Position numbers and translations under genes: made by a program
NCBI GenBank assembly: GCA_947311115.1
Contig: CAMZKE010000002.1
Span: 1-49,931 of the forward strand
DNA: 49,931 nucleotides
Reading direction: 5' to 3'
Origin: an uncultured Bacteroidales bacterium
GTDB taxonomy: Bacteria; Bacteroidota; Bacteroidia; Bacteroidales; JAFGXI01
Notes under the pieces: model-generated
What the model saw: the letters and a program-made list of their open reading frames with translations, nothing else
What the model was told of the DNA's origin: nothing
Database searches by the model: none
Shown here: positions 29,927 to 49,931 of the stretch, piece by piece
Layout: the number at the start of each line of letters is the position of its first letter
How positions within the stretch are numbered: the first letter of the stretch is position 1

Positions 29927-32900
29927 ATGAGAAAAACTTACTTTGCAAGTTTGATAGCTATTATAATTATGGCTTCAGGCAGTGCGTTCGCACAAGAGGT
30001 TGTTCATCCAACAAAAGTTACAACAGGTCATTTCTTAGGTAAATCAATACCTTTGAGAGATATTAAACCTGTAAAAAAGGATGATACTATAAAAGACAAG
30101 GGAATATCTTCAAACGAAAGAAACGAAGAAGAATTTGAACTAAATGAAAGTATGCGTGCTATTAGAGAGTATCCATACAAATCTACTGCTCAACCACAAG
30201 GACCAGACCCTGTATGGCAAAAAACAATGCCAAATAATAGGGCAGGAACTCGTGCTCCAATATTAAATTTTCAAGGGCAGAGCTCTCCTTACAATCCATC
30301 AGACTGTAATGGTTCTGTTGGGGCAAATCATTTTATGCAAGGAGTAAATAGCGATTACGAAATTTATGATAAAAACACAGGTAATGTTGTTGTTAGCTCT
30401 ACAGCTTTTAATACTTTATTTTCCGGTGTTACAGGTGCCGATAGAAATGATGGCGATATTATTGTTTTATATGATGATAATGCAGATCGTTGGTTTGCTT
30501 CAGAATTTTCCATTCCTTCACAATATGGTGGAGGAAATGATATGATGCTTATTGCTGTTTCTGAAACAAACGACCCAACAGGTTCTTGGTATCGATGGTC
30601 TTTCGATGTTGACGATATGCCCGACTATATGAAATTTGGTATTTGGGAAGATGGCTACTATATGGCAGATAACCACACGGGTGGAAACGATATTTATGTT
30701 TTTGAACGTAGTGTTATGTTAAACGGAGGAGCATCTCCTAAGATGATAGGTTTTGATAATCCAAATCGTCCTAATAGTGGTTTTCATTGTATTGAGCCCT
30801 TAGATAATGATGGTCAATTTGCACCGACAGGAACTCCGGGGCAATTTATTACAATTAATGACGACGCATGGGGAGGCGGAGGCGATGAACTTTGGATTTT
30901 TGAATGTAATGTTGATTGGAATACAACCTCAAACTCAACTTTTGCAAGAACTCAAACTATTACAGTTCCTGCATTTGATAGTGATTTTGGTAACAATATG
31001 GATAACATAGCTCAACCGGGTACAAGCCAGGAGCTTGATGCAATACCTCAAATATTAATGTATCGTGCTCAATACAGAAATTTTGGTACTACGCAAACAA
31101 TTGTTTGTGCACATACTGTTGATGTAGATAACACCGACCATGCAGGAGTTCGTTGGTATGAATTGCAAAATTCAGGTTCCGGTTGGAGTATTCGTCAAAG
31201 TGGTACTTATGCACCCGATGGCGATAGCCGTTGGATACCAAGTATCGCAATGGACGGACAGCATAATATTTCTTTAGCATATAGTATTTCAAGTACATCT
31301 ACTTATCCTGGAATAAGATATTGTGCACAATCAGCAGCTGAAAATGCAAATGCTACCGGTACTATGGATATAGCAGAAGAAGTTATCTTAAACGGAACAG
31401 CTTCTCAAACATCATCAAACCGTTGGGGAGATTATGCCGAACTTAGCGTTGACCCTGTTGATGATGTTACATTTTGGTTTACAACACAATACAGCAATAG
31501 TGGAGTAAAAACTCAAATTGCAAATTGGCGTTTTGGAAATCCACATCTACCTCCGGGAACAAATTTTGTAATTAATACTCCAAATACACTTATTCGTCCG
31601 GTTCCTCTTTTAGAAGGTGATGATGCAACATACACAAACCTAACTACCGGAACTGTTGATACTTGGGCGTGGGATATTCAAGGAGGAAACCCTTCTACTT
31701 CAACACAGCAAGACCCCGGCACAATAAACTATCCTACCGCAGGTTTATATTACACACAACTAACAGCAACAAATGCTGATGGTGATTCAACATTAAGACG
31801 TTCAGACTACATAAGAGTAATAGATCCAAATAATGTGTTTTGCGATACAATTGTTCAGTTTTATGGAACACCTTCAATATATACTTCAGCAAATGGTTAT
31901 GTTGGTGGAACAAACGAATATGATTGTAATGCTATAGCTGAAAAATTTGAAAATTTCACTCCATATAATAAATTAACAGGAGGTCGTTTCTTCTGGGCAA
32001 AAGCTACAAACGGAACATCTCCAAATGTAACATTTGCAGTTTGGGGCGATGATGGCTCCGGTAATCCTGGAACTCAGTTAGCAACAAAAACTATTGCCTT
32101 ATCAGATATTGTAAATGATGCTGCAACATTAGGTTACACTGATGTTGCCTTCGATACTGATGTTATTTTACCAGGTTCTGGTGCATTTTTTATTGGTTTT
32201 GAAATACCGGGAGATGCCGTATCTGGTGACACACTAGCTATAGTAACAAATAGCGATGGTGATGGAAATGATAACACAGGTTACAGCTTATATTCTTCAT
32301 GGACAGATTACTCTGCTTGGAATATGACACTTATGAATGCTATTTTTGCTTATGGTTGTTATGACCCTAACTTAGAACCTGTTGCAGATTTTGTCGGAAA
32401 TCCAACTACTGTAAATGCAGGTAGCACAGTAGATTTTACAGACTTATCTTATGGTGGAGCAGCTACATCATGGTCTTGGAGTTTTGCAGGAGGTACTCCT
32501 AATACATCAACTCAACAAAACCCAACAATAACCTACAATACTCCCGGATATTACGATGTAACTCTAACCGTTTCTAATGCTAACGGAACCGATACTGAAA
32601 CGAAAACTTCATACATACATGTTGTTGATGCAAACTCATGCTCATGTACAGATTTAGGGAATGTAGTTGGTAGCGAGGTGCTTTATAAAACAGGTGGTCC
32701 GGGTTACATTTCAGGAAATAACGAATATGGCGATTTAGCTAAAGCCGAATATTTTGATAATTATGCACCATATGCCAATTTAGAGGGGGCATATATTTCA
32801 TTTGGAATGGCTTATGTTAATAATCCTTCAACTAATATAACAATAAACGTTTATGCTGATGATGGCGGTAATTCAGGAAATGGAACATATTCTTATAGTC

Positions 32901-35900
32901 CCGGAACCGTTTTAGCTACAGCAACAGTAAATATTAATGATATAAAAACTGATATTGATAATGGAGATTCTACCTATGTTTCATTTGGTTCTTTATCAAT
33001 ACCCGGTAATTTTTATATTGGTTTTATAATTCCTGACCCAACTGGTGGCGGTGACTCTTTAGCTGTTAGAACAGGACAACAAGATGCTGGTACTGATAAA
33101 GGATGGGAACAATGGGATAATAATAATTGGTACTCGTATAATGAAGCCGGATGGGGTGGAAGCTTTAATAATGCAATTTATCCTGTAGTTTGTAATACAG
33201 GTGCTCCAATGCCTGATTTTGAAGCAAACAATACAATTATAGCAGCAGGTGGTGTTGTAGATTTTACTGATATATCTACTTGCTCTCCTACTTCGTGGGA
33301 TTGGAATTTCCAAGGAGGTACACCAAACACTTCAACACAACAAAATCCAAGTATTACATATAATACTGCAGGAACATACGATGTTACTTTAACTGCAACA
33401 AATGCTGATGGAAGTAATTCAGAGCAAAAAACTGCATACATTACAGTATTAGAGCCAATTGTTTGGTGGGATTTCCCTAATAATCCTGATAACGATTTAT
33501 CCGATGGCGGAATTCCTGCTAATGATGGAACAAAAAGTATAACAACTTTTGGAGGTGCCGGAGCACCTAGTTTTGGTGCAACTGGAGCTTCTACAAATGC
33601 GGCAATTGCTCGTACTTGGGGAAGTGGCGCAGATACAAAAGGGTGGCAAGTTGATTTTACTACAACAGGCTATGGTTCATTAATGCTTTATTCTAAGCAA
33701 AATGGCGATAATCGTTCTCCAAAAGATTGGAAAGTACAATATAGTACTGATGGTAGTAGTTGGACAGATTTACCAGGAGCAACTATAACTTGTGCTAACG
33801 ATTGGACAACAGGAGTATTAAACGGAGTTTCATTACCAGCTTCATTAGAAAATCAAGCCGATGTTTATCTACGTTGGATAATGACAACAAATGATGGTAT
33901 TGGAGGAAGTATTTTTAATACTAGAGACAATTTAATTGATGATATAATGGTGGTAGGAGTAGCAATAGGAACACCTCCTGTTGCAGATTTTACTGCTGAT
34001 AATACATCTATTTGTGAAGGTGCATCGGTAATATTTACCGATAACTCAACAAATACACCAACTTCATGGGCATGGAATTTTGGTGATGGAAATACATCAA
34101 CACAACAAAACCCAACGCATGTTTATACAAGTGCAGGAACTTACACTGTAGTATTAACTGCAACAAATGCTGCAGGAAGCGATACTCAAACAAAAACAGA
34201 TTATATTACTGTTTATGCAAACCCTACAGTAAGCACTTCAGTTACTGATGTAAATTGTTACGGTGGTAACGATGGAACTGCTACTGCAACAGGATCAAAC
34301 GGACAAACTCCTTACGGATATTCTTGGAATACCGGTGCATCAACAGCTACAATATCAGGTTTAACATCTGGAACATATAATGTAACTGTTACCGATGCAA
34401 ATACTTGTACAGCAACCGGTACTGCAACAGTTAATCAACCTGCATCTGCATTATCAGCTAATATTACTGCAACAACAAATGTTTCTTGTAATGGTGGTAG
34501 CGATGGTTCTGCAACAGTTTCTGCTAGCGGTGGAACATCTCCATATACTTATGAGTGGCCTTCTACAAATACAGGAACTACAGAAAGTAATTTAGCCTCA
34601 GGAAATTATATTGTAACTGTTACTGATGCTAATTCGTGTACAGCAACAGCAACAGCAACAATTTCAGAGCCTTCAACTGCTCTTTCTACTTCTATTTCGG
34701 GTAATGATGTAAATTGTAATGGTGGTAACGATGGTGATGCAAGTGTTACAGCTACAGGTGGAACATCACCTTATTCTTATAACTGGAGTAACGGAGGTTC
34801 TACAGCAACGATATCAAATCTAACTGCAGGAAATTATAACGTAACTATTACTGATGCTAACGGTTGTACAAGTACTGAAAGTATAACTATTAATGAACCT
34901 TCAACAGCCCTTTCTACTTCAATTAGTGGAAACGATGTAAATTGTAATGGTGGTAACGATGGTGATGCAACTGTTACTGCTACAGGTGGAACTACTCCTT
35001 ATTCTTATTCGTGGTCAACAGGTGGAAGTACTGATAATATAACAGGTTTATCACAAGGAACATATACTGTTACAGTAAGCGATGCTAACAGTTGTATAAG
35101 TACAGAGAGTATAACTATAAACGAACCTGCAAACGCACTTTCAACATCAATATCAGGTAATGACATAAGTTGTAATGGTGCTAACGATGGCGATGCAACT
35201 GTTGCTGCAATAGGAGGAACTACTCCTTATTCATATTCATGGTCAACAGGTGGAAGTAGTGATAACATAACAGGTTTATCACAAGGTACATATACTGTTA
35301 CAGTAAGCGATGCTAACAGTTGTACAAGTACCGAAAGTATAGTTATAAATGAGCCGACAACATTATCAACATCAATTTCCGGAACTAATGTAGATTGTAA
35401 CGGAAATAGCACCGGTAGTGCTAGTGTTACTGCAACAGGAGGAACAAGTCCTTATTCTTATGCATGGAACACAGGGGCAAGTACAAATACAATAAACAGC
35501 TTAACAGCAGGCAGTTATACTGTAACTGTTACCGATGCAAATAATTGTTCAAATAACGAAAGTATAAATATAACAGAACCTAATGCATTAACACTGTCAA
35601 TTGCAGGAACCGATGCAAGTTGTAATGGTAGTTCAGACGGTTCGGCAACCGCAACTGTTGGTGGAGGAACTTCTGCTTATAATTACTCATGGTCGTCAGG
35701 CGGAAGTAGTGCAACAGAAACCGGTTTAGGAACAGGAACATATAATTTAACTGTTACTGATGCTAATTCTTGTACAATTTCTGATAATGTTACTATAAAC
35801 GAACCAACAGCAATAGTGGTTTCTGAAACACATAATGATGCAACTTGCGGAAACTCTGATGGTAGTATAACAGCATCGGCAACAGGTGGTGCAGGTTCTT

Positions 35901-38900
35901 ATACTTACGCTTGGTCAAACGGAGGTAGTAGTGCTACAATCTCAGGTTTAAATGCAGGAACTTACACTGTAACAGTAACCGATGCTAATGCTTGTACTAA
36001 CAGTTTAGCTATATCAATAAGTAATATTGGAGGACCTTCATTAACAATGAGTAGCACCGATGTAACTTGTAATGGTGGTAACGATGGTTCAGCAGCAGTT
36101 TCAGCTACAGGCGGCACAACGCCTTATTCTTATTCGTGGTCAACAGGTGGAACTAACGATAATATATCCGGTTTAACCGCAAATAGTTATTCTGTAACTG
36201 TTACTGACGGAAACTCTTGCTCGGCAACAGGAAACGTAACTATCAATGAGCCAAGTGCGATTACTGCAATAGAAACAATTACTGATGTTGAATGCAACGG
36301 AGGTAATGATGGCGAAATTTCATTAGCTGTTTCAGGTGGAACAAATCCATATACTTTTGTATGGTCTAATTCATCTACATCTAACCCATTAACAGGGTTA
36401 CAAGCAGGAAATTATAATGTTACTGTTACTGATAATAATGCTTGCACTCAAACTTTTGCTAATTATATGGTAAATGAGCCAACAGCAATAATAGTAGCAC
36501 AAACAGTTACTGATGCAACTTGCTACGGTGGTAACGATGCTTCTGTAACACTTAATGTAAGTGGAGGTACAAGTCCATACACTTACGCTTGGTCAAGTGG
36601 AGGAAATGGTGCAACAGAAACCGGATTAAGTGCAGGAAACTATACTGTAACGGTAACTGATAATCATAACTGTTCTACAGTAGAAAATGTTACAGTTGGC
36701 GAAGGTGCAGAAATTATTCTTACAATGAACTCTACTGATGCAAGTTGTGGTTCATCAAACGGAACTGCTGATGTAAGTGTTACAGGTGGAACATCACCTT
36801 ATACATATTTATGGAACACAAGCGAAACAACTGATGCTATATCGGCACTTGCTGCAGGTACATATTCTGTAACTGTTACAGATAATAACTCTTGTACAGC
36901 AAATTCAAGTGTAAATGTAAATAATGTAGGTGGTCCTACCTTAACAGTGAACACTACTGATGTAAGTTGTTATGGCGGAAATGACGGTACTGCAAATGTT
37001 GTGGCTACAGGTGGTACAACTCCATATACATATGCTTGGTCATCAGGTGGAAACACTGATACAGAAACAGGATTAAGTACAGGTAGCTATACTGTTACAG
37101 TAACTGATGCTTCAACTTGTTCATCTACAAGTGTTGCAAATATTAATGAACCGGCTGAATTAATAGTTTCTGGTACAGTAAGTGATGCAACATGTGCCGG
37201 TTGTACCGATGGCTCAATATCATTAAATATTACCGGAGGAACAACTCCATATTCATATTCTTGGTCAGACGGAAGTTCTAATCAAGATATAACAAATGCA
37301 GGAGCAGGAAGTTACACTGTAACAGTTACCGATGCTAATGGCTGTCAAGCAATTGAAACATATAATATAAATGAACCAAACTCAATGACAATTACAATTG
37401 TGTCAACAACAGATGCAAGTTGTTACGGAGTTTGTGATGGTTCAGCTACAATATCTGTAGCAGGAGGTACAAGCCCATATTCTTATGCTTGGCCAAGTGG
37501 AAATGCAGGAACAACTGAAAACGGATTGTGTGCAGGAATTTGGACTGTTACTGTAACCGATGCAAGTGGTACTACTGCAATGCAAGATATTACTATTAAT
37601 GAACCAACTGAAATATCAAATACATTTACTGTAAACGATGCAAATTGCGGAGTTTCAGATGGCTCAATATCAACAAATGTAAGCGGTGGCACATCTCCTT
37701 ATAACTATGTTTGGAGTACAGGTTCTACAAACGATAATATTTCATCTGTTGGTGCAGGAACATATTATTTAACCGTAACTGATGCAAACTCTTGTCAAAA
37801 AATAGATAGTGCAGATGTTGGAAATATTGGAGGTCCTACTCTATCAATAACATCAACAAATGTTAGTTGTTTTGGTTTGTCAGATGGAAGTGCAACTGTT
37901 GTTGCAAATGGTGGTTCATCACCTTATACTTATGCATGGTCATCAGGTGGAAACACTGATACAGAAACAGGATTATCGGCATCAACATATACAGTAACTG
38001 TAACCGATGCAACATCTTGTATATCAACTGAAGATGTAACAATTTCAGAACCAACTGAAATTACAGCAATAGAAACTGTAACTGACGTAAGTTGTGCAGG
38101 TAGTAGTGATGGAAGTATTTCAATTAGTGTTTCAGGAGGTTCTTCTCCGTATAACTATAACTGGTCGAGTGGAGGAACAAACGCTACAGAAACAGGCTTA
38201 GCAGGTGGAGCATATTCTGTTACTGTTACCGACAATAATGCTTGTACTTTTGAGGCAACTTATACAGTTAACGAAGGTCCTGCACTGAATATGAGTGTAG
38301 TTTCAACAAGCGATGTAAGTTGTAATGGTGGAAACAATGGTTCTGCTATTGTTAATTTAGATGGAGGAACTGCTCCTGTTACATATACTTGGGATAACAG
38401 CTCAATAGGTAATACAATCTATAATCTTGAAGTTGGAACATATAATGTAACTGCCGTTGATGTAAATGGTTGTACTGCAAATACAAGTGTTACAATAAAC
38501 GAACCTACAGCAATGCAGATTGATGTAAATACTGTTGATGCTCATTGCGGAAACAGCGATGGTTCTGCTACAGTTGTTGCAAGTGGAGGAATATCACCAT
38601 ATAATTATTTATGGTCTGATGGTTCAACCGAAGATAATTTAACCAACTTGGCAATGGGAATATATATTGTAACTGTTACCGATGCAAACGGATGTCAGCA
38701 AGTTATCACTAATGTGATAAATAATACTAATGCTCCAATTATTACATTGGTTGGCTCAAATGTATATTGTAACGGAGATAGTACCGGAACAATTACATCA
38801 AATGTAACAGGCGGTACTCAGCCATATAGCTATTTATGGTCAACAGGAAGTACAGAGGATAATATTTACAATTTAGTTGCAGGAGATTATTTTGTATCTG

Positions 38901-39541
38901 TAAGCGATGCTAACAATTGTACTTCTATTGCTCAGCACTCTATCACACAACCTGATACAAAACTTAAAATTAATTCGGAGATTACTCAGTCAAGTTGTAA
39001 TGAGATGAATGATGGAGCAATTCAACTTTCTGTAGAGTATGGTACAGAACCATATAATTATACATGGAGTACAGGTGAAGCAACTGATTATCTAGAAAAT
39101 GTGAAGGTGGGTATATATAATGTAACTGTTACCGATGCTAACAATTGTGAAACTAGCAATGTAGTTGAAGTAACATCTGTTAAAGAAAGTTGTTTACATG
39201 TTTATAATACTTTAACACCAAATGGTGATGGTAAAAATGATACTTGGATTATTGATGGAATTGAAAACTTCTCTAATGTTGATGTAAAAGTATTTAACCA
39301 ATGGGGTAACTTAGTATGGGAGCATACTGGTTATTATGAAAATTGGGATGGTACCAAAAATGGTAAATTATTACCTGCAGCAACTTATTATTACATTCTT
39401 GATTTAGGAAATGGTTTTGATGTGTTAAAAGGAGACTTAACAATAATATCATCGGTAAATAGAACGCCTATAAAGCCAAAAAAGAAAAAGGTAATTTATA
39501 AAAAAGGAGTAGTTTTAAATAATAATTCTAAAAACTTATAA
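29927..39541 (+). CDS. Giant secreted/surface protein: beta-propeller-like N-region, PKD-like domains, SprB repeats, gliding motility-associated (CHU_C/type B) C-terminal domain
   Basis: 3204 aa; signal peptide; PKD-like motifs (WAWNFGDGNTSTQQNPTHVYTSAGTYTVVLTATN); about 22 SprB units; CTD TLTPNGDGKNDTWII...VKVFNQWGNLVWE. Confidence 0.95.
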   Translation: MRKTYFASLIAIIIMASGSAFAQEVVHPTKVTTGHFLGKSIPLRDIKPVKKDDTIKDKGISSNERNEEEFELNESMRAIREYPYKSTAQPQGPDPVWQKTMPNNRAGTRAPILNFQGQSSPYNPSDCNGSVGANHFMQGVNSDYEIYDKNTGNVVVSSTAFNTLFSGVTGADRNDGDIIVLYDDNADRWFASEFSIPSQYGGGNDMMLIAVSETNDPTGSWYRWSFDVDDMPDYMKFGIWEDGYYMADNHTGGNDIYVFERSVMLNGGASPKMIGFDNPNRPNSGFHCIEPLDNDGQFAPTGTPGQFITINDDAWGGGGDELWIFECNVDWNTTSNSTFARTQTITVPAFDSDFGNNMDNIAQPGTSQELDAIPQILMYRAQYRNFGTTQTIVCAHTVDVDNTDHAGVRWYELQNSGSGWSIRQSGTYAPDGDSRWIPSIAMDGQHNISLAYSISSTSTYPGIRYCAQSAAENANATGTMDIAEEVILNGTASQTSSNRWGDYAELSVDPVDDVTFWFTTQYSNSGVKTQIANWRFGNPHLPPGTNFVINTPNTLIRPVPLLEGDDATYTNLTTGTVDTWAWDIQGGNPSTSTQQDPGTINYPTAGLYYTQLTATNADGDSTLRRSDYIRVIDPNNVFCDTIVQFYGTPSIYTSANGYVGGTNEYDCNAIAEKFENFTPYNKLTGGRFFWAKATNGTSPNVTFAVWGDDGSGNPGTQLATKTIALSDIVNDAATLGYTDVAFDTDVILPGSGAFFIGFEIPGDAVSGDTLAIVTNSDGDGNDNTGYSLYSSWTDYSAWNMTLMNAIFAYGCYDPNLEPVADFVGNPTTVNAGSTVDFTDLSYGGAATSWSWSFAGGTPNTSTQQNPTITYNTPGYYDVTLTVSNANGTDTETKTSYIHVVDANSCSCTDLGNVVGSEVLYKTGGPGYISGNNEYGDLAKAEYFDNYAPYANLEGAYISFGMAYVNNPSTNITINVYADDGGNSGNGTYSYSPGTVLATATVNINDIKTDIDNGDSTYVSFGSLSIPGNFYIGFIIPDPTGGGDSLAVRTGQQDAGTDKGWEQWDNNNWYSYNEAGWGGSFNNAIYPVVCNTGAPMPDFEANNTIIAAGGVVDFTDISTCSPTSWDWNFQGGTPNTSTQQNPSITYNTAGTYDVTLTATNADGSNSEQKTAYITVLEPIVWWDFPNNPDNDLSDGGIPANDGTKSITTFGGAGAPSFGATGASTNAAIARTWGSGADTKGWQVDFTTTGYGSLMLYSKQNGDNRSPKDWKVQYSTDGSSWTDLPGATITCANDWTTGVLNGVSLPASLENQADVYLRWIMTTNDGIGGSIFNTRDNLIDDIMVVGVAIGTPPVADFTADNTSICEGASVIFTDNSTNTPTSWAWNFGDGNTSTQQNPTHVYTSAGTYTVVLTATNAAGSDTQTKTDYITVYANPTVSTSVTDVNCYGGNDGTATATGSNGQTPYGYSWNTGASTATISGLTSGTYNVTVTDANTCTATGTATVNQPASALSANITATTNVSCNGGSDGSATVSASGGTSPYTYEWPSTNTGTTESNLASGNYIVTVTDANSCTATATATISEPSTALSTSISGNDVNCNGGNDGDASVTATGGTSPYSYNWSNGGSTATISNLTAGNYNVTITDANGCTSTESITINEPSTALSTSISGNDVNCNGGNDGDATVTATGGTTPYSYSWSTGGSTDNITGLSQGTYTVTVSDANSCISTESITINEPANALSTSISGNDISCNGANDGDATVAAIGGTTPYSYSWSTGGSSDNITGLSQGTYTVTVSDANSCTSTESIVINEPTTLSTSISGTNVDCNGNSTGSASVTATGGTSPYSYAWNTGASTNTINSLTAGSYTVTVTDANNCSNNESINITEPNALTLSIAGTDASCNGSSDGSATATVGGGTSAYNYSWSSGGSSATETGLGTGTYNLTVTDANSCTISDNVTINEPTAIVVSETHNDATCGNSDGSITASATGGAGSYTYAWSNGGSSATISGLNAGTYTVTVTDANACTNSLAISISNIGGPSLTMSSTDVTCNGGNDGSAAVSATGGTTPYSYSWSTGGTNDNISGLTANSYSVTVTDGNSCSATGNVTINEPSAITAIETITDVECNGGNDGEISLAVSGGTNPYTFVWSNSSTSNPLTGLQAGNYNVTVTDNNACTQTFANYMVNEPTAIIVAQTVTDATCYGGNDASVTLNVSGGTSPYTYAWSSGGNGATETGLSAGNYTVTVTDNHNCSTVENVTVGEGAEIILTMNSTDASCGSSNGTADVSVTGGTSPYTYLWNTSETTDAISALAAGTYSVTVTDNNSCTANSSVNVNNVGGPTLTVNTTDVSCYGGNDGTANVVATGGTTPYTYAWSSGGNTDTETGLSTGSYTVTVTDASTCSSTSVANINEPAELIVSGTVSDATCAGCTDGSISLNITGGTTPYSYSWSDGSSNQDITNAGAGSYTVTVTDANGCQAIETYNINEPNSMTITIVSTTDASCYGVCDGSATISVAGGTSPYSYAWPSGNAGTTENGLCAGIWTVTVTDASGTTAMQDITINEPTEISNTFTVNDANCGVSDGSISTNVSGGTSPYNYVWSTGSTNDNISSVGAGTYYLTVTDANSCQKIDSADVGNIGGPTLSITSTNVSCFGLSDGSATVVANGGSSPYTYAWSSGGNTDTETGLSASTYTVTVTDATSCISTEDVTISEPTEITAIETVTDVSCAGSSDGSISISVSGGSSPYNYNWSSGGTNATETGLAGGAYSVTVTDNNACTFEATYTVNEGPALNMSVVSTSDVSCNGGNNGSAIVNLDGGTAPVTYTWDNSSIGNTIYNLEVGTYNVTAVDVNGCTANTSVTINEPTAMQIDVNTVDAHCGNSDGSATVVASGGISPYNYLWSDGSTEDNLTNLAMGIYIVTVTDANGCQQVITNVINNTNAPIITLVGSNVYCNGDSTGTITSNVTGGTQPYSYLWSTGSTEDNIYNLVAGDYFVSVSDANNCTSIAQHSITQPDTKLKINSEITQSSCNEMNDGAIQLSVEYGTEPYNYTWSTGEATDYLENVKVGIYNVTVTDANNCETSNVVEVTSVKESCLHVYNTLTPNGDGKNDTWIIDGIENFSNVDVKVFNQWGNLVWEHTGYYENWDGTKNGKLLPAATYYYILDLGNGFDVLKGDLTIISSVNRTPIKPKKKKVIYKKGVVLNNNSKNL
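34225..39185 (+). repeat. About 22 tandem SprB-type repeats (about 75 aa / 225 nt each)
   Basis: Counted by eye from the recurring D(V/A).C.G..DG......GG..PY.Y.WS.G......L..G.Y.VTVTDAN.C pattern. Confidence 0.9.
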
Positions 39542-39552
39542 AAAATAGTGTA

Positions 39553-40449
39553 ATGAAAAAGTTTTTAATAATAATATCGATAGTTTTTGTAGCGTTTACA
39601 GTAAATGCACAGCAAAATACAACTTTCAGCCAATATATGTTAAATTACTACTCTATAAATCCTGCAGTAGCAGGAACAGAGTCGTATATGCCAATTGCTT
39701 TGGGCTTTCGTCAGTCGTGGACAGGTTTTACAAATGCCCCAAGTATGCAAATGATTAGTGGGCACACAGCCATTAATAATGAAATGGGAGTTGGTGCAAA
39801 AATTTATAATTTTTCAACCGGTCCATCTCGTAAAACAGGTGTTGAGGGTACTTATGCTTACCGTTTTGATTTTGGCGATGATATGCACTTATCTTTAGGG
39901 CTTTCAGTTCTTATGTATCAAATGTATTTAGATATTACAAAACTTGATATGAAAGACCAAGATGATAATGTACTTTATGGTTCGTCAGCTCATAGAGTTA
40001 TAGTGCCTGATGCTTCATTTGGGGCTTATTTTTATGCAAAAAACTATTTTGCAGGTGTTTCAATTAATCAATTGTTTAATCGTAAAGTTGACTTTGCGAC
40101 TAATTATTTGAAAGAGGAACAAGTAAGACATTATTATTTAATAGGTGGTTATAATTACGAAATTAATGATAATTTTACTGTTCAACCATCGTTGATGGCT
40201 AAATTTATTGAAGCAGGTGCGTTCCAAATGGATTTAAATGCTAAAGTGATTTATAAGAAAATGTTCTTTGGGGGAGTGTCGTACCGTTTTGGAGAATCGA
40301 TTGTAATGATGTTTGGTGTTGATATTAAAAATATAACACTTGGCTATTCTTATGATTATACACTTAATGAAATTGGTAATTACAGTAATGGCTCTCACGA
40401 GTTAATGGTTATTTTTAAACTTGGTGGTAAATCTACAGCTTCGTTATAG
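39553..40449 (+). CDS. PorP/SprF family type IX secretion partner membrane protein
   Basis: QQNTTFSQYMLNYYSINPAVAGTESYMPIALGFRQSWTGFTNAPSMQ; 11 bp downstream of the giant gene. Confidence 0.95.
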   Translation: MKKFLIIISIVFVAFTVNAQQNTTFSQYMLNYYSINPAVAGTESYMPIALGFRQSWTGFTNAPSMQMISGHTAINNEMGVGAKIYNFSTGPSRKTGVEGTYAYRFDFGDDMHLSLGLSVLMYQMYLDITKLDMKDQDDNVLYGSSAHRVIVPDASFGAYFYAKNYFAGVSINQLFNRKVDFATNYLKEEQVRHYYLIGGYNYEINDNFTVQPSLMAKFIEAGAFQMDLNAKVIYKKMFFGGVSYRFGESIVMMFGVDIKNITLGYSYDYTLNEIGNYSNGSHELMVIFKLGGKSTASL

Positions 40450-41921: not shown

Positions 41922-43214
41922 ATGGCAAAGACCGTTTACGTAGGAATGAGTGCCGATTTAATTCATCCAGGACATTTAAATATAATAAAAGAAGCTAGTA
42001 AATTAGGCGATGTGATTGTCGGAGTTTTAACTGATAAAGCTATTGCATCATATAAACGATTACCAACTTTAAAATTTGAGCAGAGAAAACTTATTATAGA
42101 AAGTATAAAAGGAGTTACAGAGGTCGTTGCCCAAAATGAATTAGATTATTCTGTAAATTTACGTAAAATAAAACCTGATTTTGTTGTTCATGGCGACGAT
42201 TGGAAAGATGGAGTACAAAAAAGAGTAAGGCAAAAGGTTATTGATATTTTGGCAGAATGGGGTGGAAAGCTGCATGAAGTTCCTTACACAAAAGGTATTT
42301 CGTCAACTCAACTTAATAAAGCTGTAAAAGAAATTGGGACTACTCCAAATATCCGATTAGAGAAATTACGAAGATTAATTGATTCGAAGCCCATTGTAAA
42401 AGTAATGGAAGCTCATAATGGATTAACAGGTCTTATTGTTGAAAATGCCAGTGTAAAAAAAGATGGGCAGGTAAAAGAATTTGATGCAATGTGGTTAAGT
42501 AGTTTAACCGATTCTACAGCTAAAGGCAAGCCTGATATTGAGGCAGTTGATGTAACATCAAGATTGCATAGTTTAAACGATATTTTGGAGGTTACTACAA
42601 AACCAATTATTTACGACGGAGATACGGGTGGAATACCTGAGCATTTTATTTTTACTGTAAGAACCCTTGAGCGATTAGGTGTTTCTGCTATTATTATTGA
42701 AGATAAAACAGGATTGAAAAAAAATTCTCTTTTCGGAACTGATGTTGCTCAAACACAAGATACAATTGAAAAATTTTGTGCTAAAATAAAAACAGGAAAG
42801 CAATCGCAAATAACAAAAGATTTTATGATAATTGCACGTATTGAGAGTTTAATTCTTAAACAAGGAATAGATGATGCAATAAAACGAGCAAAAGCATACA
42901 TTGAGGCCGGTGCAGACGGAATAATGATTCATAGCAAGGAGAAAGATGGCTCAGAAATATTAGAGTTTTGTAAACTTTACAATAATTTTGAAAATATTGT
43001 CCCATTGGTAGTTGTTCCATCAAGCTATAACCATTTATACGAAAAACAGTTAATAGAAGCAGGTGCTAATGTTGTAATATATGCTAATCATTTATTAAGG
43101 GCGGCATACCCTGCAATGCTTGATGTGGCTAAAACTATTTTAGAAAACGAACGCTCAAAAGAAGTTGACGACCAATGTATGTCGATAAAAGAAATTTTAA
43201 CACTTATTCCTTAA
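41922..43214 (+). CDS. aepX: Nucleotidyltransferase-phosphoenolpyruvate mutase fusion
   Basis: N-terminal HPGH and KGISSTQL cytidylyltransferase motifs; C-terminal PEP mutase signature [12 protein letters not shown]. Confidence 0.93.
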
Positions 43215-43217
43215 AAA

Positions 43218-44336
43218 ATGATAAATACTAAGACCTTTTACGAATATTTAGGGAGTAAAGAAATAGAGTTTTTTACTGGTGTACCTGATTCATTATTAAA
43301 AGATATTTGTGCGTATATTACTGATAATACATCTGAAAAAAAACATATAATAGCAGCAAACGAAGGAAACGCAATAGCCTTAGCCGCAGGTTATCATATG
43401 GCTACAGGAAAAGTACCAATGGTTTATATGCAAAATTCTGGTATTGGTAATGCTGTTAATCCGTTGCTATCACTAACTGACCAAGAGGTTTACAATATTC
43501 CTATATTACTAATGATTGGTTGGCGAGGTGAAACTAAAGATGAGCCTCAACATGTAAAACAAGGTAAAGTTACAACCGATTTGCTTGATGCAATGCAAAT
43601 TCCATATTTAATTTTAGATATTGATGAGGATATAGCAAAAAAACAAATTGATGAAGCTGTTAAAATAATAAAAGAAACAAATAAAGCTTTTGCTATAATT
43701 ATAAGAAAAGGAACTTTTGAGAAATATAATATTAAGCAAAAAATAAAAACAGAATATAAATTATCTCGCGAGCAAGCAATAAAAATTATTGTTGATAATA
43801 TATCAGATAATGAGCTTATTGTTTCAACAACAGGAAAAACTTCACGCGAACTTTTTGAATATAGAGAAGAGTTAAGCCAAAAACATAACTCCGATTTTTT
43901 AACTGTAGGTTCAATGGGGCATGCAAGTCAAATAGCATTAGGAATTGCATTAAGTAAACCAAATCGTAAAATTATTTGTATTGATGGCGATGGAGCTGTG
44001 TTAATGCATATGGGAGGTTTTGCAATTATTGGAACTCAACAGCCTAAAAACTTTTTACATATTGTGGTAAATAACGGAGCTCATGAATCGGTAGGAGGGC
44101 AACCAACAGTTGCATTTAATATTGATATACCAAAAATTGCTGAAGCAAATAATTATAAATTTGTAAAGCGTGTTTCTACCGAAAACGAGCTAAATAATGC
44201 CTTAAAACAGGTCGATTCTTATCCTGCACTTATTGAGATAATGACTATGGTTGGTGCAAGAGAAAATTTAGGTCGCCCAACAATAAAACCTGTTGATAAT
44301 AAAAAAGATTTCATGCAAAATTTAGCCTCGGAATGA
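43218..44336 (+). CDS. aepY: Phosphonopyruvate decarboxylase
   Basis: FFTGVPDSLLKDICAYI, NEGNAIALAAGYHMATGK; ThDP GDGAVLMHMGG motif; adjacent to PEP mutase. Confidence 0.94.
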   Translation: MINTKTFYEYLGSKEIEFFTGVPDSLLKDICAYITDNTSEKKHIIAANEGNAIALAAGYHMATGKVPMVYMQNSGIGNAVNPLLSLTDQEVYNIPILLMIGWRGETKDEPQHVKQGKVTTDLLDAMQIPYLILDIDEDIAKKQIDEAVKIIKETNKAFAIIIRKGTFEKYNIKQKIKTEYKLSREQAIKIIVDNISDNELIVSTTGKTSRELFEYREELSQKHNSDFLTVGSMGHASQIALGIALSKPNRKIICIDGDGAVLMHMGGFAIIGTQQPKNFLHIVVNNGAHESVGGQPTVAFNIDIPKIAEANNYKFVKRVSTENELNNALKQVDSYPALIEIMTMVGARENLGRPTIKPVDNKKDFMQNLASE

Positions 44337-45454
44337 CACAGCAAGTTTTTAAAGAAAACAATTTATCTGAGTTAAAAAGCTATATTAATTCTTTAGAGAA
44401 AAGAAAAATATTTATTGTTGCAGACTCACTGTCATACAGTATATCAGGTGCGAAACAATTTATTGAAAACACATTGCAACTAAATGATAATATTGTTTTC
44501 ACAGATTTTAATCCAAATCCTCAAATTGAAGATTTAAGAAAAGGAATAAGACTTTTTAATTCTAAAAGTTTTGAATTTATTATTGCTATTGGCGGAGGTT
44601 CTGTTTTAGATATGGCAAAACTCATAAGTGTTATGGCTCATCAAACCGAAAATTTGGAAGAAATAACAAAGGGAAATGCCAAAATAAATAACAATAAAAC
44701 AAAATTATTAGTTATACCAACAACTGCCGGAACAGGTGCCGAAGCTACAGCTTTTTCGGTATTATATATTAACAAAATTAAATACTCGGTAGCAAGTAAA
44801 TTAATTTTACCTGATATTGTTTTTTTGTCGTCAGAGTTTTCAATGTCGGCTCCGCCATATTTAACAGCAAGTACAGGTTTAGACGCCTTTTCGCAAGCAA
44901 TAGAGTCAGTTTGGAGTGTAAACTCAAATACTCAATCGCAAGAATACGCATTTAAGGCTATAGAGCTGGTTTGGAATAATTTAGAAAAAGCTGTTAACAA
45001 AAACAATAAACAAGCAAAACAAAAAATGCAAGAAGCAGCATTTTTAGCAGGCAAAGCAATAAACATTACAAAAACTACAGCTCCACACGCTTTATCTTAT
45101 GGTTTTACAAGCTATTATAATATACCTCATGGGCATGCGGTAATATTAAGTTTAAATTATTTTCTAGAGTTTAATTATAATGTAACCGATAGTAATTGTA
45201 CTGATAGTAGAGGTGCTGAGGCAGTTAAAAAACGAATAGATAAAATTCTACAAATTTTAGATACAAATATATCAAATGTAAAAGTGGTATTAAATAGTTT
45301 TTATAAATCAATTAATATAAATACTAATATATCGGTATTAATTAATAATTTTGACGCAAATTTAATACTCAATAGTACTAGTGTAGAACGGTTAAACAAC
45401 AACCCCAGAAAAGTAACAAAAAGTGATATAAATATTTTTTTAATAGATAAATGA
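44333..45454 (+). CDS. Iron-containing alcohol dehydrogenase, putative phosphonoacetaldehyde reductase
   Basis: GGGSVLDMAK, TTAGTGAEAT, HALSYGFTSYYNIPHGHA; ATGA overlap with aepY. Confidence 0.85.
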   Translation: MTQQVFKENNLSELKSYINSLEKRKIFIVADSLSYSISGAKQFIENTLQLNDNIVFTDFNPNPQIEDLRKGIRLFNSKSFEFIIAIGGGSVLDMAKLISVMAHQTENLEEITKGNAKINNNKTKLLVIPTTAGTGAEATAFSVLYINKIKYSVASKLILPDIVFLSSEFSMSAPPYLTASTGLDAFSQAIESVWSVNSNTQSQEYAFKAIELVWNNLEKAVNKNNKQAKQKMQEAAFLAGKAINITKTTAPHALSYGFTSYYNIPHGHAVILSLNYFLEFNYNVTDSNCTDSRGAEAVKKRIDKILQILDTNISNVKVVLNSFYKSININTNISVLINNFDANLILNSTSVERLNNNPRKVTKSDINIFLIDK

Positions 45455-46710
45455 TGCCAATTTTATTATATATCGACCCTGCATCAACGAGTGCATTATT
45501 ATACATTATTATTGCAATAGGTGCAACATTAGCATTTGCTTTAAGAGGTTTTTTTTATAAAGTGAAAAATTTAATACTTGGTAAAGGATTTGTTAATAAA
45601 AACGAATTTGAAAATATCGATATAGTTTTTTATTCTGAAGGAAAACAATATTGGTATGTGTTTTCGCCAATTATTAAGGCGTTAGAAAAAAAAGGTAAAG
45701 AGTGTGTTTATTTAAGTTCAGACCAAAACGACCCGGGCTTAGAGTATAAATCGGATTTACTAAAAACAAAATATATTGGTAATTTAACAATGACATCAGT
45801 ATATTTAAATAAATTAAAAGCAAAATTTGTAGTAATGACAACACCTCAGCTTGATGTTATGATGCTTCGCCGTTCTAAAAAAGTTGACCATTATGCTCAT
45901 ATAGTTCATGCACCTATTGATGTTTTTACTTATCGTAAATTTGCTTTCGATTATTTTGATTCGGTATTTTGCTCTGGCCCTCATCAGATAAAAGGTATTA
46001 GAAAACTTGAAGAAAAACGTGGTACTAATAAGAAACTTTTATTAGAAACAGGCTTTACTATTTACGATGTTATGCTCGAAGATATAAAGAAACTATCTAA
46101 ACCTAATAAAGAAAAACCTATTGTTTTGGTTGCTCCTACCTGGAAAGAATACTCTATAATTAATAGGTTTGGAATAAATTTTTTTGAAAATTTATTAAAA
46201 GATAATTCTTACGATATAATTTTGCGTCCGCACCCACAAACTTATGTTAGTCATCCTAAACTTATTGCAGAAATTGAAGAAAAATATAAAAATGAACCAC
46301 GAATTACAATAGACCGTAATCCGTTAGGTACAGAAAGTATGCATAAAGCCGATTTAATGATAAGTGATTTGTCAGGTGTGTTTTGGGATTTTGCATTTTT
46401 ATATTCAAAACCTGTGCTGTTACTTAAAACTGATTTTGAATCGATAGAGGGTTTTGAAGGAAGTGAACTTGATTACCAGATGTGGGAAATGCGTGAGAGA
46501 AATCGCTTAGGAAAACAATTTGATGAAAATGACATCGAAAATATAAGTGTAATAGTTAAAGATTTGATAAATAATCCGCCTTTAAATAAATTAGAAGAAT
46601 TGAAAAATAGTTCGGTTTATAATTTTGGAAATGCAGGCGAAGTAGCAGCAAATCAGATATTAGAAATAATAAGCAGTATAAATACAAACCAAACTGTTGT
46701 TGCTAAATAG
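45451..46710 (+). CDS. CDP-glycerol glycerophosphotransferase-like (TagB/TagF family) putative phosphonyl transferase, N-terminal membrane anchor
   Basis: LRPHPQTYVSHP, MISDLSGVFWDFAFLYSKPVLL; N-terminal TM; ATGA overlap with upstream gene. Confidence 0.82.
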   Translation: MMPILLYIDPASTSALLYIIIAIGATLAFALRGFFYKVKNLILGKGFVNKNEFENIDIVFYSEGKQYWYVFSPIIKALEKKGKECVYLSSDQNDPGLEYKSDLLKTKYIGNLTMTSVYLNKLKAKFVVMTTPQLDVMMLRRSKKVDHYAHIVHAPIDVFTYRKFAFDYFDSVFCSGPHQIKGIRKLEEKRGTNKKLLLETGFTIYDVMLEDIKKLSKPNKEKPIVLVAPTWKEYSIINRFGINFFENLLKDNSYDIILRPHPQTYVSHPKLIAEIEEKYKNEPRITIDRNPLGTESMHKADLMISDLSGVFWDFAFLYSKPVLLLKTDFESIEGFEGSELDYQMWEMRERNRLGKQFDENDIENISVIVKDLINNPPLNKLEELKNSSVYNFGNAGEVAANQILEIISSINTNQTVVAK

Positions 46711-46711
46711 T

Positions 46712-49700
46712 ATGAGTTTTTTTGAAAGCATAATATCGCCATTTATATTTTTTATTGAAAAAGTATTTTTGTTTGCATATCATATAACCGGAAATTACGG
46801 AATAGCAATAATTTTATTAAGTTTTTCGGTTTCGTTGCTTTTACTTCCCGTTTTTATCTACATCGAGAAATCGAAAAAGAAAGACGATGTAATAAAACAA
46901 AAAATGAAGCCTTTAATAGATGAAATTAAACGTGTTTATAAGGGACAAGAACGATATTATTACATCAAAACCATAAACCGACAACATAATTACAGCTCGT
47001 TAAAGGCATTACTACCAATACTAAGTTTGTTAATTCAGATACCGTTTTTTATTGCTGCATACCAATATTTAGAATATTTTGAGGGCTTACAAGGCGTAGG
47101 TTTTGGCTTTATTAAAGATTTGAGCAAACCTGATGGGCTGTTTGGAGTTGTAAATATTTTACCAATATTAATGACTGTAATAAACTTAATAACAGTTTAT
47201 TACTATACCAGATTAGGCGATGGTTCAGAACTTAAACAAATGCTTGTAATAGCAATTGCATTTTTAGTTTTACTTTTTAATTTGCCTGCAGGTTTGGTTT
47301 TATATTGGACAATGAATAATGTTTTTAGCTTTTTCAGATTATTTATTACTAACCCCGAAGTGTTTAAGAAAAAACAAAATTCAATATCGATAAACATTAA
47401 ACAAGAAATTCTCACTCTTTTACCTAAGTTAAAGATAGGTTTTATTGTGTTGTTGGCAATTTCTGTTTTTGTACAGTTTTATTGGGCTTTTACTCATAAT
47501 TTTGATGATATATATTTTAGGATAATAGCTGCTGTTATCTTTAGTTTGGTATTTTCTTTAATTCTAGGGATAATTAATATTTATTACCAAAGATATAAAT
47601 ATATAATATTTAATATTAATGTTTCTAGTAATGTATTTTATTCATTAATTTTTTTAACAATATATTTTCATTTAGCATCTCAATTTTATTATACAGGGGT
47701 AAATAATCTTTTAGGCTTTATTTCTATAATGTTTTTAATACCTACTCAATTTATTTCGTTTCTGTATTTAATTAGGCTAAAACAAAATGTATTTTTTAAA
47801 ATATTTTTTAAAATTTATTATATTGTTGTTTCTTATCAGATTATATCGCTAATTACGTTAATTAAAGGTGATAATATAATTATAAATATAGCTAAATTAA
47901 AAGTGGTTTTTGTTGAGGGTTCATTTTCAGATGTTTTGGTCCCCGGTATATTTTTAATTTTGAGTTTAATATTTGTTTTTTATCGAACACAAAATAATAT
48001 TGTGCCAATTGTGAAAAAACAATGGTGGATATTTGTACTTTCAAGCATATACATATATGGATTAACATTTTTGTGGAATCCGTTATTAGTATTTTCAACA
48101 TCTCCAGGTAGTTTTGGATTTACAAGTTTTGAATTATTAAAAACAAATTCAATTTATTTTATATTTTTTGTTGCCGGTAATTTATTCTTATTTTACATAT
48201 TACCGTCAAATATAAAATATCTTATTTCTGTTGTTTTTCTAATGATAGTTGTTGTTAGTGTTATTAATAATCAAATAATTCCTATAGATTTGGGAACATT
48301 ACAAATGAATAAATTTAATAAAATTGATTCTATTATTAAACCATTATATTATTATTTAGTAGAAGCATCGTCTATAATATTATTATATTTTTACATAAAT
48401 AAAATAATAAAAAATAAATCTTCTGTAGTTTTTATTACTCTCATTATTTTAAATGTAATAGTAATATTAAATACATTCTATAAAATAATAAATATTAATG
48501 AGGAGAATAAGAAACAAGCTCTTGTGTTAACAAATAATAAAGATAATCTGAATAATAATTTTATTACATTTTCACAAAATAAAGAAAACGTGTTGGTTAT
48601 TGTATTAGATATGTTTCAAGGTTGGTATTTGAAATACATTTTAGATGAAAATAAATCATTAAATAGTAATTTTAGTGGCTTTGTATGGTATCCAAATACT
48701 GTATCAATCACAAATTACACTTCTTCTTCTGCTCCATCTATATTGGCAGGAAATATGTATACACCTGAAAAATTAAATTTAGATACTAAACATACTATTG
48801 TTGAGAAAATAACTAAGGCTCAAGAAATATTACATAATAAAGTTGAAAAAGAATCATACAATTATATTAGTTCTACAATACCTTACTCTATATATGATAA
48901 AAATAAAATGGAGTCTTATATTCCATTTTGGAGTAAAAAGTGGGATAAATATAAATCCTCATTAAATATAGGTGTAACTAAAGAAAATGCCTATTCTGTT
49001 TTATGGCAGAATTCGTTGTTTTACAGTTTGCCTCTTTTCCTTAAACCTAGAATATATAACAAAGGTAATTGGCTGATACAAAAAAATAATGTACATGAAA
49101 ATAATTTTCAAGCTCAACAATATAATCTTTTACGAATTTTACCGTATATTTCAACTACTTATTCTGAATCAAAAAAAGGAAGCTTTATTTGGTTATGGTT
49201 TAATGCTACGCATTTTCCATGGGATATTATTGATGATGATGGGGATTTTATTTCAGATGTTGCACCTTTTGAAAATAACAAATGGGCAATGTTAAGAATT
49301 AATGATTATATTACATGGATGAAAAAAAATAATGTTTATAACAATACAAAAATAATTATTTTATCAGATCATGGTTTAAGGGATACTAAGATTACTAAAC
49401 ATGAAGTTATGATTGCGAACCCTTATATTGCCGATAAAAAAAATAACATACCAAATACAGATTTATTATCTTTTAATCCATTGATGATGGTTAAAGAAGT
49501 AAATAAAAATGAAGTTCTTAAAATTGATAGTTCATTCTTGAGTAATGCGGATACTTATAATATTATTTTTGACGATAATAATCCTATATATAACATTAAT
49601 AATAGAACTTTATCTTCTTATCTTATTTCTTGGAAAATAAAACCCTATAAATATAAACAGTATCTAATTTCAAGAGCATATAATATAAGGACTAATGTAT

Positions 49701-49735
49701 ATGAAACTAAAAACTGGGAGTTGATAAATAAATAA
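46712..49735 (+). CDS. YidC/Oxa1-like domain fused through extra TM helices to an alkaline-phosphatase/sulfatase-superfamily domain
   Basis: N-term IILLSFSVSLLLLP...LLIQIPFFIAAYQYL...IKDLSKPD...LFNLPAGLVLYWTMNN (YidC-like); C-term NVLVIVLDMFQGW, TSSSAPSILAG, IILSDHG (AP-like). Start at 46712 rather than 46697 by comparison with the second copy. Confidence 0.8.
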   Translation: MSFFESIISPFIFFIEKVFLFAYHITGNYGIAIILLSFSVSLLLLPVFIYIEKSKKKDDVIKQKMKPLIDEIKRVYKGQERYYYIKTINRQHNYSSLKALLPILSLLIQIPFFIAAYQYLEYFEGLQGVGFGFIKDLSKPDGLFGVVNILPILMTVINLITVYYYTRLGDGSELKQMLVIAIAFLVLLFNLPAGLVLYWTMNNVFSFFRLFITNPEVFKKKQNSISINIKQEILTLLPKLKIGFIVLLAISVFVQFYWAFTHNFDDIYFRIIAAVIFSLVFSLILGIINIYYQRYKYIIFNINVSSNVFYSLIFLTIYFHLASQFYYTGVNNLLGFISIMFLIPTQFISFLYLIRLKQNVFFKIFFKIYYIVVSYQIISLITLIKGDNIIINIAKLKVVFVEGSFSDVLVPGIFLILSLIFVFYRTQNNIVPIVKKQWWIFVLSSIYIYGLTFLWNPLLVFSTSPGSFGFTSFELLKTNSIYFIFFVAGNLFLFYILPSNIKYLISVVFLMIVVVSVINNQIIPIDLGTLQMNKFNKIDSIIKPLYYYLVEASSIILLYFYINKIIKNKSSVVFITLIILNVIVILNTFYKIININEENKKQALVLTNNKDNLNNNFITFSQNKENVLVIVLDMFQGWYLKYILDENKSLNSNFSGFVWYPNTVSITNYTSSSAPSILAGNMYTPEKLNLDTKHTIVEKITKAQEILHNKVEKESYNYISSTIPYSIYDKNKMESYIPFWSKKWDKYKSSLNIGVTKENAYSVLWQNSLFYSLPLFLKPRIYNKGNWLIQKNNVHENNFQAQQYNLLRILPYISTTYSESKKGSFIWLWFNATHFPWDIIDDDGDFISDVAPFENNKWAMLRINDYITWMKKNNVYNNTKIIILSDHGLRDTKITKHEVMIANPYIADKKNNIPNTDLLSFNPLMMVKEVNKNEVLKIDSSFLSNADTYNIIFDDNNPIYNINNRTLSSYLISWKIKPYKYKQYLISRAYNIRTNVYETKNWELINK

Positions 49736-49931
49736 TGAATATTTTTGAACACATAATAGCGCCATTTATATTTTTTATTGAAAAAGTATTTTTGTTTGCA
49801 TACCAAATAACAGGAAATTATGGGGTGTCAATAATTTTATTAAGTTTTTCGGTTTCGTTGCTTTTACTTCCCGTTTTTATCTACATCGAGAAATCGAAAA
49901 AGAAAGACGATGTAATAAAACAAAAAATGAA
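49735..49931 (+). CDS. Second tandem copy of the YidC-like/AP-fold protein (truncated by window edge)
   Basis: MNIFEHIIAPFIFFIEKVFLFAYQITGNYGVSIILLSFSVSLLLLPVF...; 184/197 nt identical to 46712-46908; TAATG overlap with copy 1. Confidence 0.85.
   Translation, partial: MNIFEHIIAPFIFFIEKVFLFAYQITGNYGVSIILLSFSVSLLLLPVFIYIEKSKKKDDVIKQKM

Follow-up and report, generated by a model that had tools for sequence, protein, structure and literature searches.

What does a protein do that begins like a membrane insertase and ends like a sulfatase? The window, by which we mean the whole stretch of 49,931 nucleotides that was analysed, encodes such a protein of 1,007 amino acids in an uninterrupted frame at 46712–49735 of the forward strand. 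We refer to the protein as YidC-AP and to this gene as copy 1. Three parts were found, all on the forward strand: a YidC/Oxa1 core (residues 1–222; 46712–47377), a membrane region of 11 helices (residues 223–610; 47378–48541) and a periplasmic domain of the alkaline-phosphatase (AP)/sulfatase fold (residues 611–1007 plus the stop codon; 48542–49735). The AF2 model had a mean pLDDT of 81.7, and the topology predicted by the positive-inside rule placed the AP domain outside and the cytosolic C1 hairpin of the YidC core inside. An earlier note on this DNA, made from the sequence alone, had described a YidC-like N-terminus, many extra transmembrane (TM) segments and a C-terminus of the alkaline-phosphatase/sulfatase superfamily. 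The N-terminus was borne out by Pfam, NCBIfam, phmmer and the predicted fold, the TM segments by 11 predicted helices, and the C-terminus by both sequence and fold; the structure check that the note had proposed, carried out with AF2 and Foldseek, returned a YidC fold for the N-terminal part and sulfatase/LtaS folds for the C-terminal part. Its view that a frameshift joining two genes was unlikely also held, because independent contigs from many metagenome-assembled genomes (MAGs) carry this fusion too, and a frameshift or assembly fusion was therefore ruled out as the origin of YidC-AP. Its author knew of no characterised protein with such an arrangement, and we found no description of a YidC-sulfatase or YidC-AP fusion in the literature searched, a scope that lay outside most subscription journals. 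This architecture is genuine, it recurs, and it goes together with a supply of phosphonate; its parts are each of known kinds, and their combination is new.

The YidC module was compared with known families and structures. The results showed that it matched Pfam 60KD_IMP (PF02096; E = 7.9e-26, 91.4 bits, cut-off 35) and NCBIfam yidC_oxa1_cterm (TIGR03592; 92.3 bits, cut-off 84.3), that single-sequence phmmer matched it to E. coli YidC at E = 1.4e-7, and that its AF2 model aligned in fold with E. coli YidC (6al2_B) over 216 columns (rmsd 4.0, E = 1.3e-5). Like the YidC/Oxa1/Alb3 insertases of these two families, it has an EH1-like helix, five TM helices, the C1 helical hairpin and polar groove positions, and S37, Q109, T155, N202 and N203 in the groove are polar and nearly invariant among YidC-AP modules. 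It differs from them in that the conserved groove Arg/Lys of bacterial YidC is replaced by Ser, the ribosome-binding C-terminal tail has given way to the fusion, and the module is joined to the 11-TM region and an enzyme, bound to a phosphonate cassette and present in addition to a housekeeping YidC. In the profile alignment, S41 of YidC-AP occupied the position of E. coli YidC R366; the E-values of this alignment are not independent because the profile includes one genuine YidC row, and the independent match to YidC is the single-sequence phmmer one. Every one of the 18 aligned YidC-AP modules, which are full or near-full, carries Ser41, and one further fragment outside these 18 (L033_2) carries Phe at position 41. 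The source genome retains a normal YidC on contig C155, which has Lys at the groove position.

Between the YidC and AP domains, AF2 and topology prediction gave 11 TM helices (model pLDDT 78). No Pfam family was found for this middle region in any of 15 members, and no PDB fold matched it (best E 2.0). It contains a TM-hairpin unit with a spacing of about 74 residues, which occurs in one to four tandem copies among homologues and as a single 74-aa unit in copy 1; the count of membrane helices therefore differs from one homologue to the next. The motif QxNWAxxxxFDDIxLRL of this unit was observed in the loci L023 (10001–13690), L024, L025 (10001–12412), L026, L029 and L034 (10344–13613).

The C-terminus of copy 1, scanned alone, matched Phosphodiest at E = 1.4e-5 (25.4 bits, cut-off 23), and with the whole protein this match fell below the cut-off. 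Sulfatase reached E 0.06–0.48 against copy 1, with 13 bits for the domain scanned alone; orthologous C-termini scored up to 46 bits with Sulfatase, as much as 21 bits over its cut-off, and copy 2 of the source genome scored 34.8 bits. Foldseek on the AF2 model returned sulfatases, LtaS and PbgA/YejM, with carbohydrate sulfatases as the top matches, and LtaS was also matched by profile (E = 5e-4). D633, T670, H834 (HxPW), D886 and H887 (SDHG) were invariant in 18 homologous sequences. In the AF2 model, T670 lies at the start of a helix (670–679), the usual site of AP-superfamily nucleophiles, and this invariant residue probably acts as the nucleophile. Judged by position, D633, T670, D886 and H887 would provide the Thr nucleophile together with Asp/Glu, Asp and His metal ligands, and their invariance agrees with the metal/nucleophile layout of LtaS, EptA and sulfatases that had been noted earlier; further metal ligands of the domain showed no clear conservation.

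The Cys/Ser-x-Pro-Ser-Arg motif of fGly-sulfatases was absent from this place throughout the family; the Thr670 region itself reads TSSSAP, and an ordinary sulfatase was ruled out by the missing Cys motif. A Thr nucleophile without the sulfatase Cys is what we take to be the LtaS/EptA pattern and not that of an fGly-sulfatase, and the T-x-x-S-x-P spacing presumably resembles EptA/MCR, as a lead only. Among AP-fold proteins embedded in the membrane, those with a Thr nucleophile are for the most part transferases. LtaS, EptA/MCR and PbgA/YejM have five N-terminal TM helices, and we know of none among them with a YidC module. YidC-AP shares with these proteins an outer-face AP fold placed after TM helices and the set of D633, T670, D886 and H887, but it has 16 TM helices instead of 5 and its headgroup is likely a phosphonate. 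Both the enzyme class of the AP domain and its phosphonate context are well supported. The source genome (G000) also encodes two more Sulfatase-family proteins of about 633 aa (C44 28714–29529 and C79 20252–21061), which have the size of LtaS/YejM and are possible conventional counterparts of YidC-AP.

YidC-AP is the fifth gene of a cassette whose genes, all on the forward strand of the window, overlap or sit no more than 3 nt apart. The first (41922–43214) encodes a 430-aa fusion of a Fom1-type cytidylyltransferase (CyTase) and a PEP mutase (PepM), with matches to PF13714 (2.5e-57), PF01467 (3.2e-14) and TIGR02320 (421 bits, cut-off 320). Its PEP mutase part carries an EDKxxxxxNS-type motif as well as HPGH, and the best PDB relative of its N-terminal CyTase domain was 5x3d (E = 1e-57), which we take to be the Fom1 CyTase. 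The product of Fom1 CyTase is CMP-hydroxyethylphosphonate (PMC6697681). By analogy with this closest relative, the fusion protein, which makes phosphonopyruvate, would make CMP-hydroxyethylphosphonate too. The next genes encode a phosphonopyruvate decarboxylase (Ppd, 372 aa; 43218–44336; TIGR03297 504 bits, cut-off 312.5), an iron-containing alcohol dehydrogenase (Fe-ADH, 373 aa; 44333–45454; PF00465 2.9e-37) and a CDP-glycerol:glycerophosphotransferase-like protein with an N-terminal membrane hairpin (Gly, 419 aa; 45451–46710; PF04464, Glyphos_transf, 1.4e-11). Fe-ADH is presumed to be a phosphonoacetaldehyde reductase that yields 2-hydroxyethylphosphonate (HEP). Among NCBIfam equivalogs it scored above no cut-off (TIGR03405, 167 of 424 bits), and because it passes no phosphonate-specific model, the choice of HEP over another phosphonate is a guess, in which hydroxyethylphosphonate is more likely than aminoethylphosphonate. 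Gly is presumed to be a CMP-phosphonate:membrane-acceptor transferase, and no PDB relative of it was found at E 0.01.

The order PepM-CyTase, Ppd, Fe-ADH, Gly, YidC-AP was kept in 10 of the 10 contigs with enough upstream sequence, and in five loci cut by contig ends it agreed as far as the sequence reaches; one to three YidC-AP copies stand in tandem per cassette. The phosphonate link suggested by the earlier note was confirmed by the PEP mutase (421 bits), the decarboxylase (504 bits) and this invariant cassette. None of the five genes encodes a LicD-like or glycosyl transferase, and Gly is found instead. Compared with Fom1 of the fosfomycin pathway, the first enzyme is likewise a PEP mutase with an N-terminal CyTase domain, but the product of the cassette presumably goes to the cell surface and not into an antibiotic. 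The phosphonyl-tailoring (Pnt) clusters (PMC6697681) share with the cassette a PEP mutase-nucleotidyltransferase fusion and the CMP-phosphonate logic for surface decoration, whereas Gly and YidC-AP take the place of LicD and a glycan locus here; the main text of that paper makes no mention of YidC. Elsewhere in the window, a 3204-aa protein (29927–39541) has repeats of PKD-like and SprB-like kinds and ends in a gliding-type C-terminus; PorP/SprF follows at 39553–40449, and together they probably make up an adhesin pair of type IX secretion.

We scanned 84,980 species genomes with an alignment of YidC-AP N-termini as the query. The results showed 15 YidC-AP loci, all from MAGs, labelled Bacteroidales, Salinivirgaceae, Bacteroidetes or Chlorobiota (one short contig, L033) and of Bacteroidota type; L023 and L024 come from near-identical genomes and are to be counted as one. 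Within the order, 4 of 295 genomes carried YidC-AP. Among 396 phylum-wide genomes, the source genome was the only one with Gly and likewise the only one with the YidC module, and P0001 had no match among plasmids. A fused PepM-CyTase occurred in 11 of the 295 genomes, and the four of these that carry YidC-AP were the same four found by a C-terminal query. The seven others have Ppd and mostly Fe-ADH too; six of them have readable surroundings, which are mostly glycan loci, with LicD in four. The same phosphonate supply thus feeds one of two routes, LicD-type tailoring in the cytosol or Gly together with YidC-AP. Apparent frameshifts in L034 were traced to N gaps in the assembly, and an apparent break in copy 2 of L025 is open to doubt as an assembly error or a frameshift.

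The window ends within a second copy of YidC-AP. Its first 197 nt lie at 49735–49931 on the forward strand, and the gene resumes at nt 198 on the minus strand of contig C84 (L004), which carries the remaining 944 residues; from this we infer that the window and C84 join. The second copy, which had been recognised earlier by its start with the same YidC-like module, is real, as C84 resumes exactly at nt 198. Within the YidC module of copy 1, a homogenised stretch of 206 nt (46806–47011, forward strand) is identical to copy 2, namely to 49829–49931 (103 nt) followed by the first 103 nt of C84, and this identity between the copies is the probable cause of the contig break at the window end. After copy 2, C84 carries two MBOAT genes, several AlgX/SGNH-like genes and a GT2 gene, which are not conserved in homologous loci. 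Since the downstream genes are not conserved, the five genes from PepM-CyTase to YidC-AP form the unit, and the MBOAT/AlgX genes were ruled out as part of the cassette. The two MBOAT acyltransferase genes (L004 9572–16806), with AlgX/SGNH-like genes behind each of them, lie 6 nt from the stop of YidC-AP; related genes occur in another part of locus L025 and in none of the other loci. By eye, the C-terminal 125 residues of the YidC-AP copy at L022 13047–16466 resemble the short helical tails (KAxxNxxxxxxxLxxDAxW) of the C84 AlgX/SGNH-like proteins (L004 3193–13898).

The three parts of the protein were then compared between genomes and between tandem copies. Median identity between genomes was 70% in the YidC module, 40% in the AP domain and 28% in the middle region. 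Between tandem copies, the YidC modules were 95% identical in the source genome, 98% in L022 and 95% in L034 (77 columns), and the AP domains of these paralogues were 24–42% identical; the pairs in L023, L024, L025 and L029 were less homogenised, with 72–90% in the YidC module. At codons for identical residues, synonymous differences amounted to 2–10% between copies (source genome, L022) versus 40–63% between the genome pairs compared. The YidC tree paired copy 1 with copy 2 of the source genome and L022_1 with L022_2, but the AP tree did not. AU tests, with groups picked after the trees were seen, rejected the grouping of copies 1 and 2 of the source genome in the AP tree (p = 5e-5) and AP-type groupings in the YidC tree (p < 3e-7). 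In L023 and L024, which are 99.4–100% identical elsewhere in the array, the two genomes differ in one tract within the YidC module of copy 2, and the L024 version of this tract equals copy 1; this looks like gene conversion, which repeat assembly in MAGs can mimic. In L034_1 (L034 7484–9985), the YidC module matches that of the neighbour copy at 95% identity, but the middle and AP parts are very divergent (24% identity); this suggests that enzyme parts of only distant relationship can be fused to a YidC module. With a shared YidC module and unlike enzyme domains, tandem copies would give several acceptor specificities on a common donor-handling unit.

With moderate confidence, we propose that YidC-AP acts in the membrane as a phosphonyltransferase and attaches HEP to the cell surface, its YidC module handling a lipid-linked donor. 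What the earlier note had put forward as a possible function, a transferase or flippase-transferase in the membrane that acts on a lipid or glycan bearing a phosphonate, appears to be the best explanation of this protein. PEP mutase and phosphonopyruvate decarboxylase, both strongly supported, would together with Fe-ADH produce cytosolic HEP, and the Fom1-like CyTase domain, if it acts like its closest relative, would activate HEP to CMP-HEP. Membrane-anchored Gly may then move the phosphonyl group from CMP-HEP onto a membrane lipid or carrier. In the least certain step, the YidC-like module would carry the lipid-linked headgroup through the membrane or present it, and the periplasmic AP domain would load the group on Thr670 and transfer it to an external acceptor made elsewhere in the cell. 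We found no published precedent for such a phosphonate-transporting use of YidC in the literature searched. YidC, Oxa1 and Get1 scramble phospholipids in vitro, and in simulations the path is the insertion groove (PMC10491306). Insertase mutants, among them one of B. halodurans YidC, scrambled more weakly in simulations (PMC10491306), so the loss of groove charge could weaken lipid movement and not favour it.

The YidC module could instead still serve as an insertase or chaperone, either for its own middle and enzyme parts or for partners such as Gly, which would make the protein an ordinary surface transferase. The full, strongly conserved YidC core with its cytosolic C1 hairpin and the large 11-TM domain adjoining it are consistent with this; we nevertheless consider it unlikely, given that the groove cation is lost, the ribosome-binding tail is replaced, a normal YidC is retained in the genome and a chaperone would not obviously be limited to a phosphonate cassette. 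The lost groove charge also fits an inactive scaffold, by which the transferase would be anchored and docked onto Gly or the enzymes of the biosynthesis while another protein moves the donor lipid, and a common docking partner would be expected to keep the YidC module as the most conserved part, common to all tandem copies. The conserved polar residues S37, Q109, T155, N202 and N203, needless for a pure anchor, argue against a scaffold, and we regard it as improbable too.

A hydrolytic role of the AP domain, as a phosphodiesterase or sulfatase-like enzyme that removes or remodels surface groups, is very unlikely. The Pfam Phosphodiest and Sulfatase matches and the carbohydrate sulfatases at the top of the fold search point in that direction, but the Cys/Ser-x-Pro-Ser-Arg motif is replaced by an invariant Thr, proteins of this Thr-nucleophile membrane class are in general mostly transferases, and phosphonate synthesis genes are always alongside where upstream sequence exists. 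For the preferred reading, a phosphonyltransferase with a donor-handling YidC module, we offer a tentative and rather doubtful extension: a YidC-type insertase module may have been turned into a dedicated phosphonolipid translocator, covalently joined to the transferase that it feeds and kept uniform by gene conversion while enzyme modules were diversified or swapped, giving one donor and many acceptors.

YidC-AP is a candidate for a step of phosphonate biology that has been called enigmatic, the route of activated phosphonates to the cell surface. Lipid scrambling by YidC/Oxa1 proteins was recently shown in vitro. With a YidC core that lacks the usual groove charge and a headgroup-type transferase in a phosphonate cassette, YidC-AP provides a natural test case for the use of such scrambling by cells, and if its YidC module proves to be a lipid carrier, this would be a new use of the YidC family.
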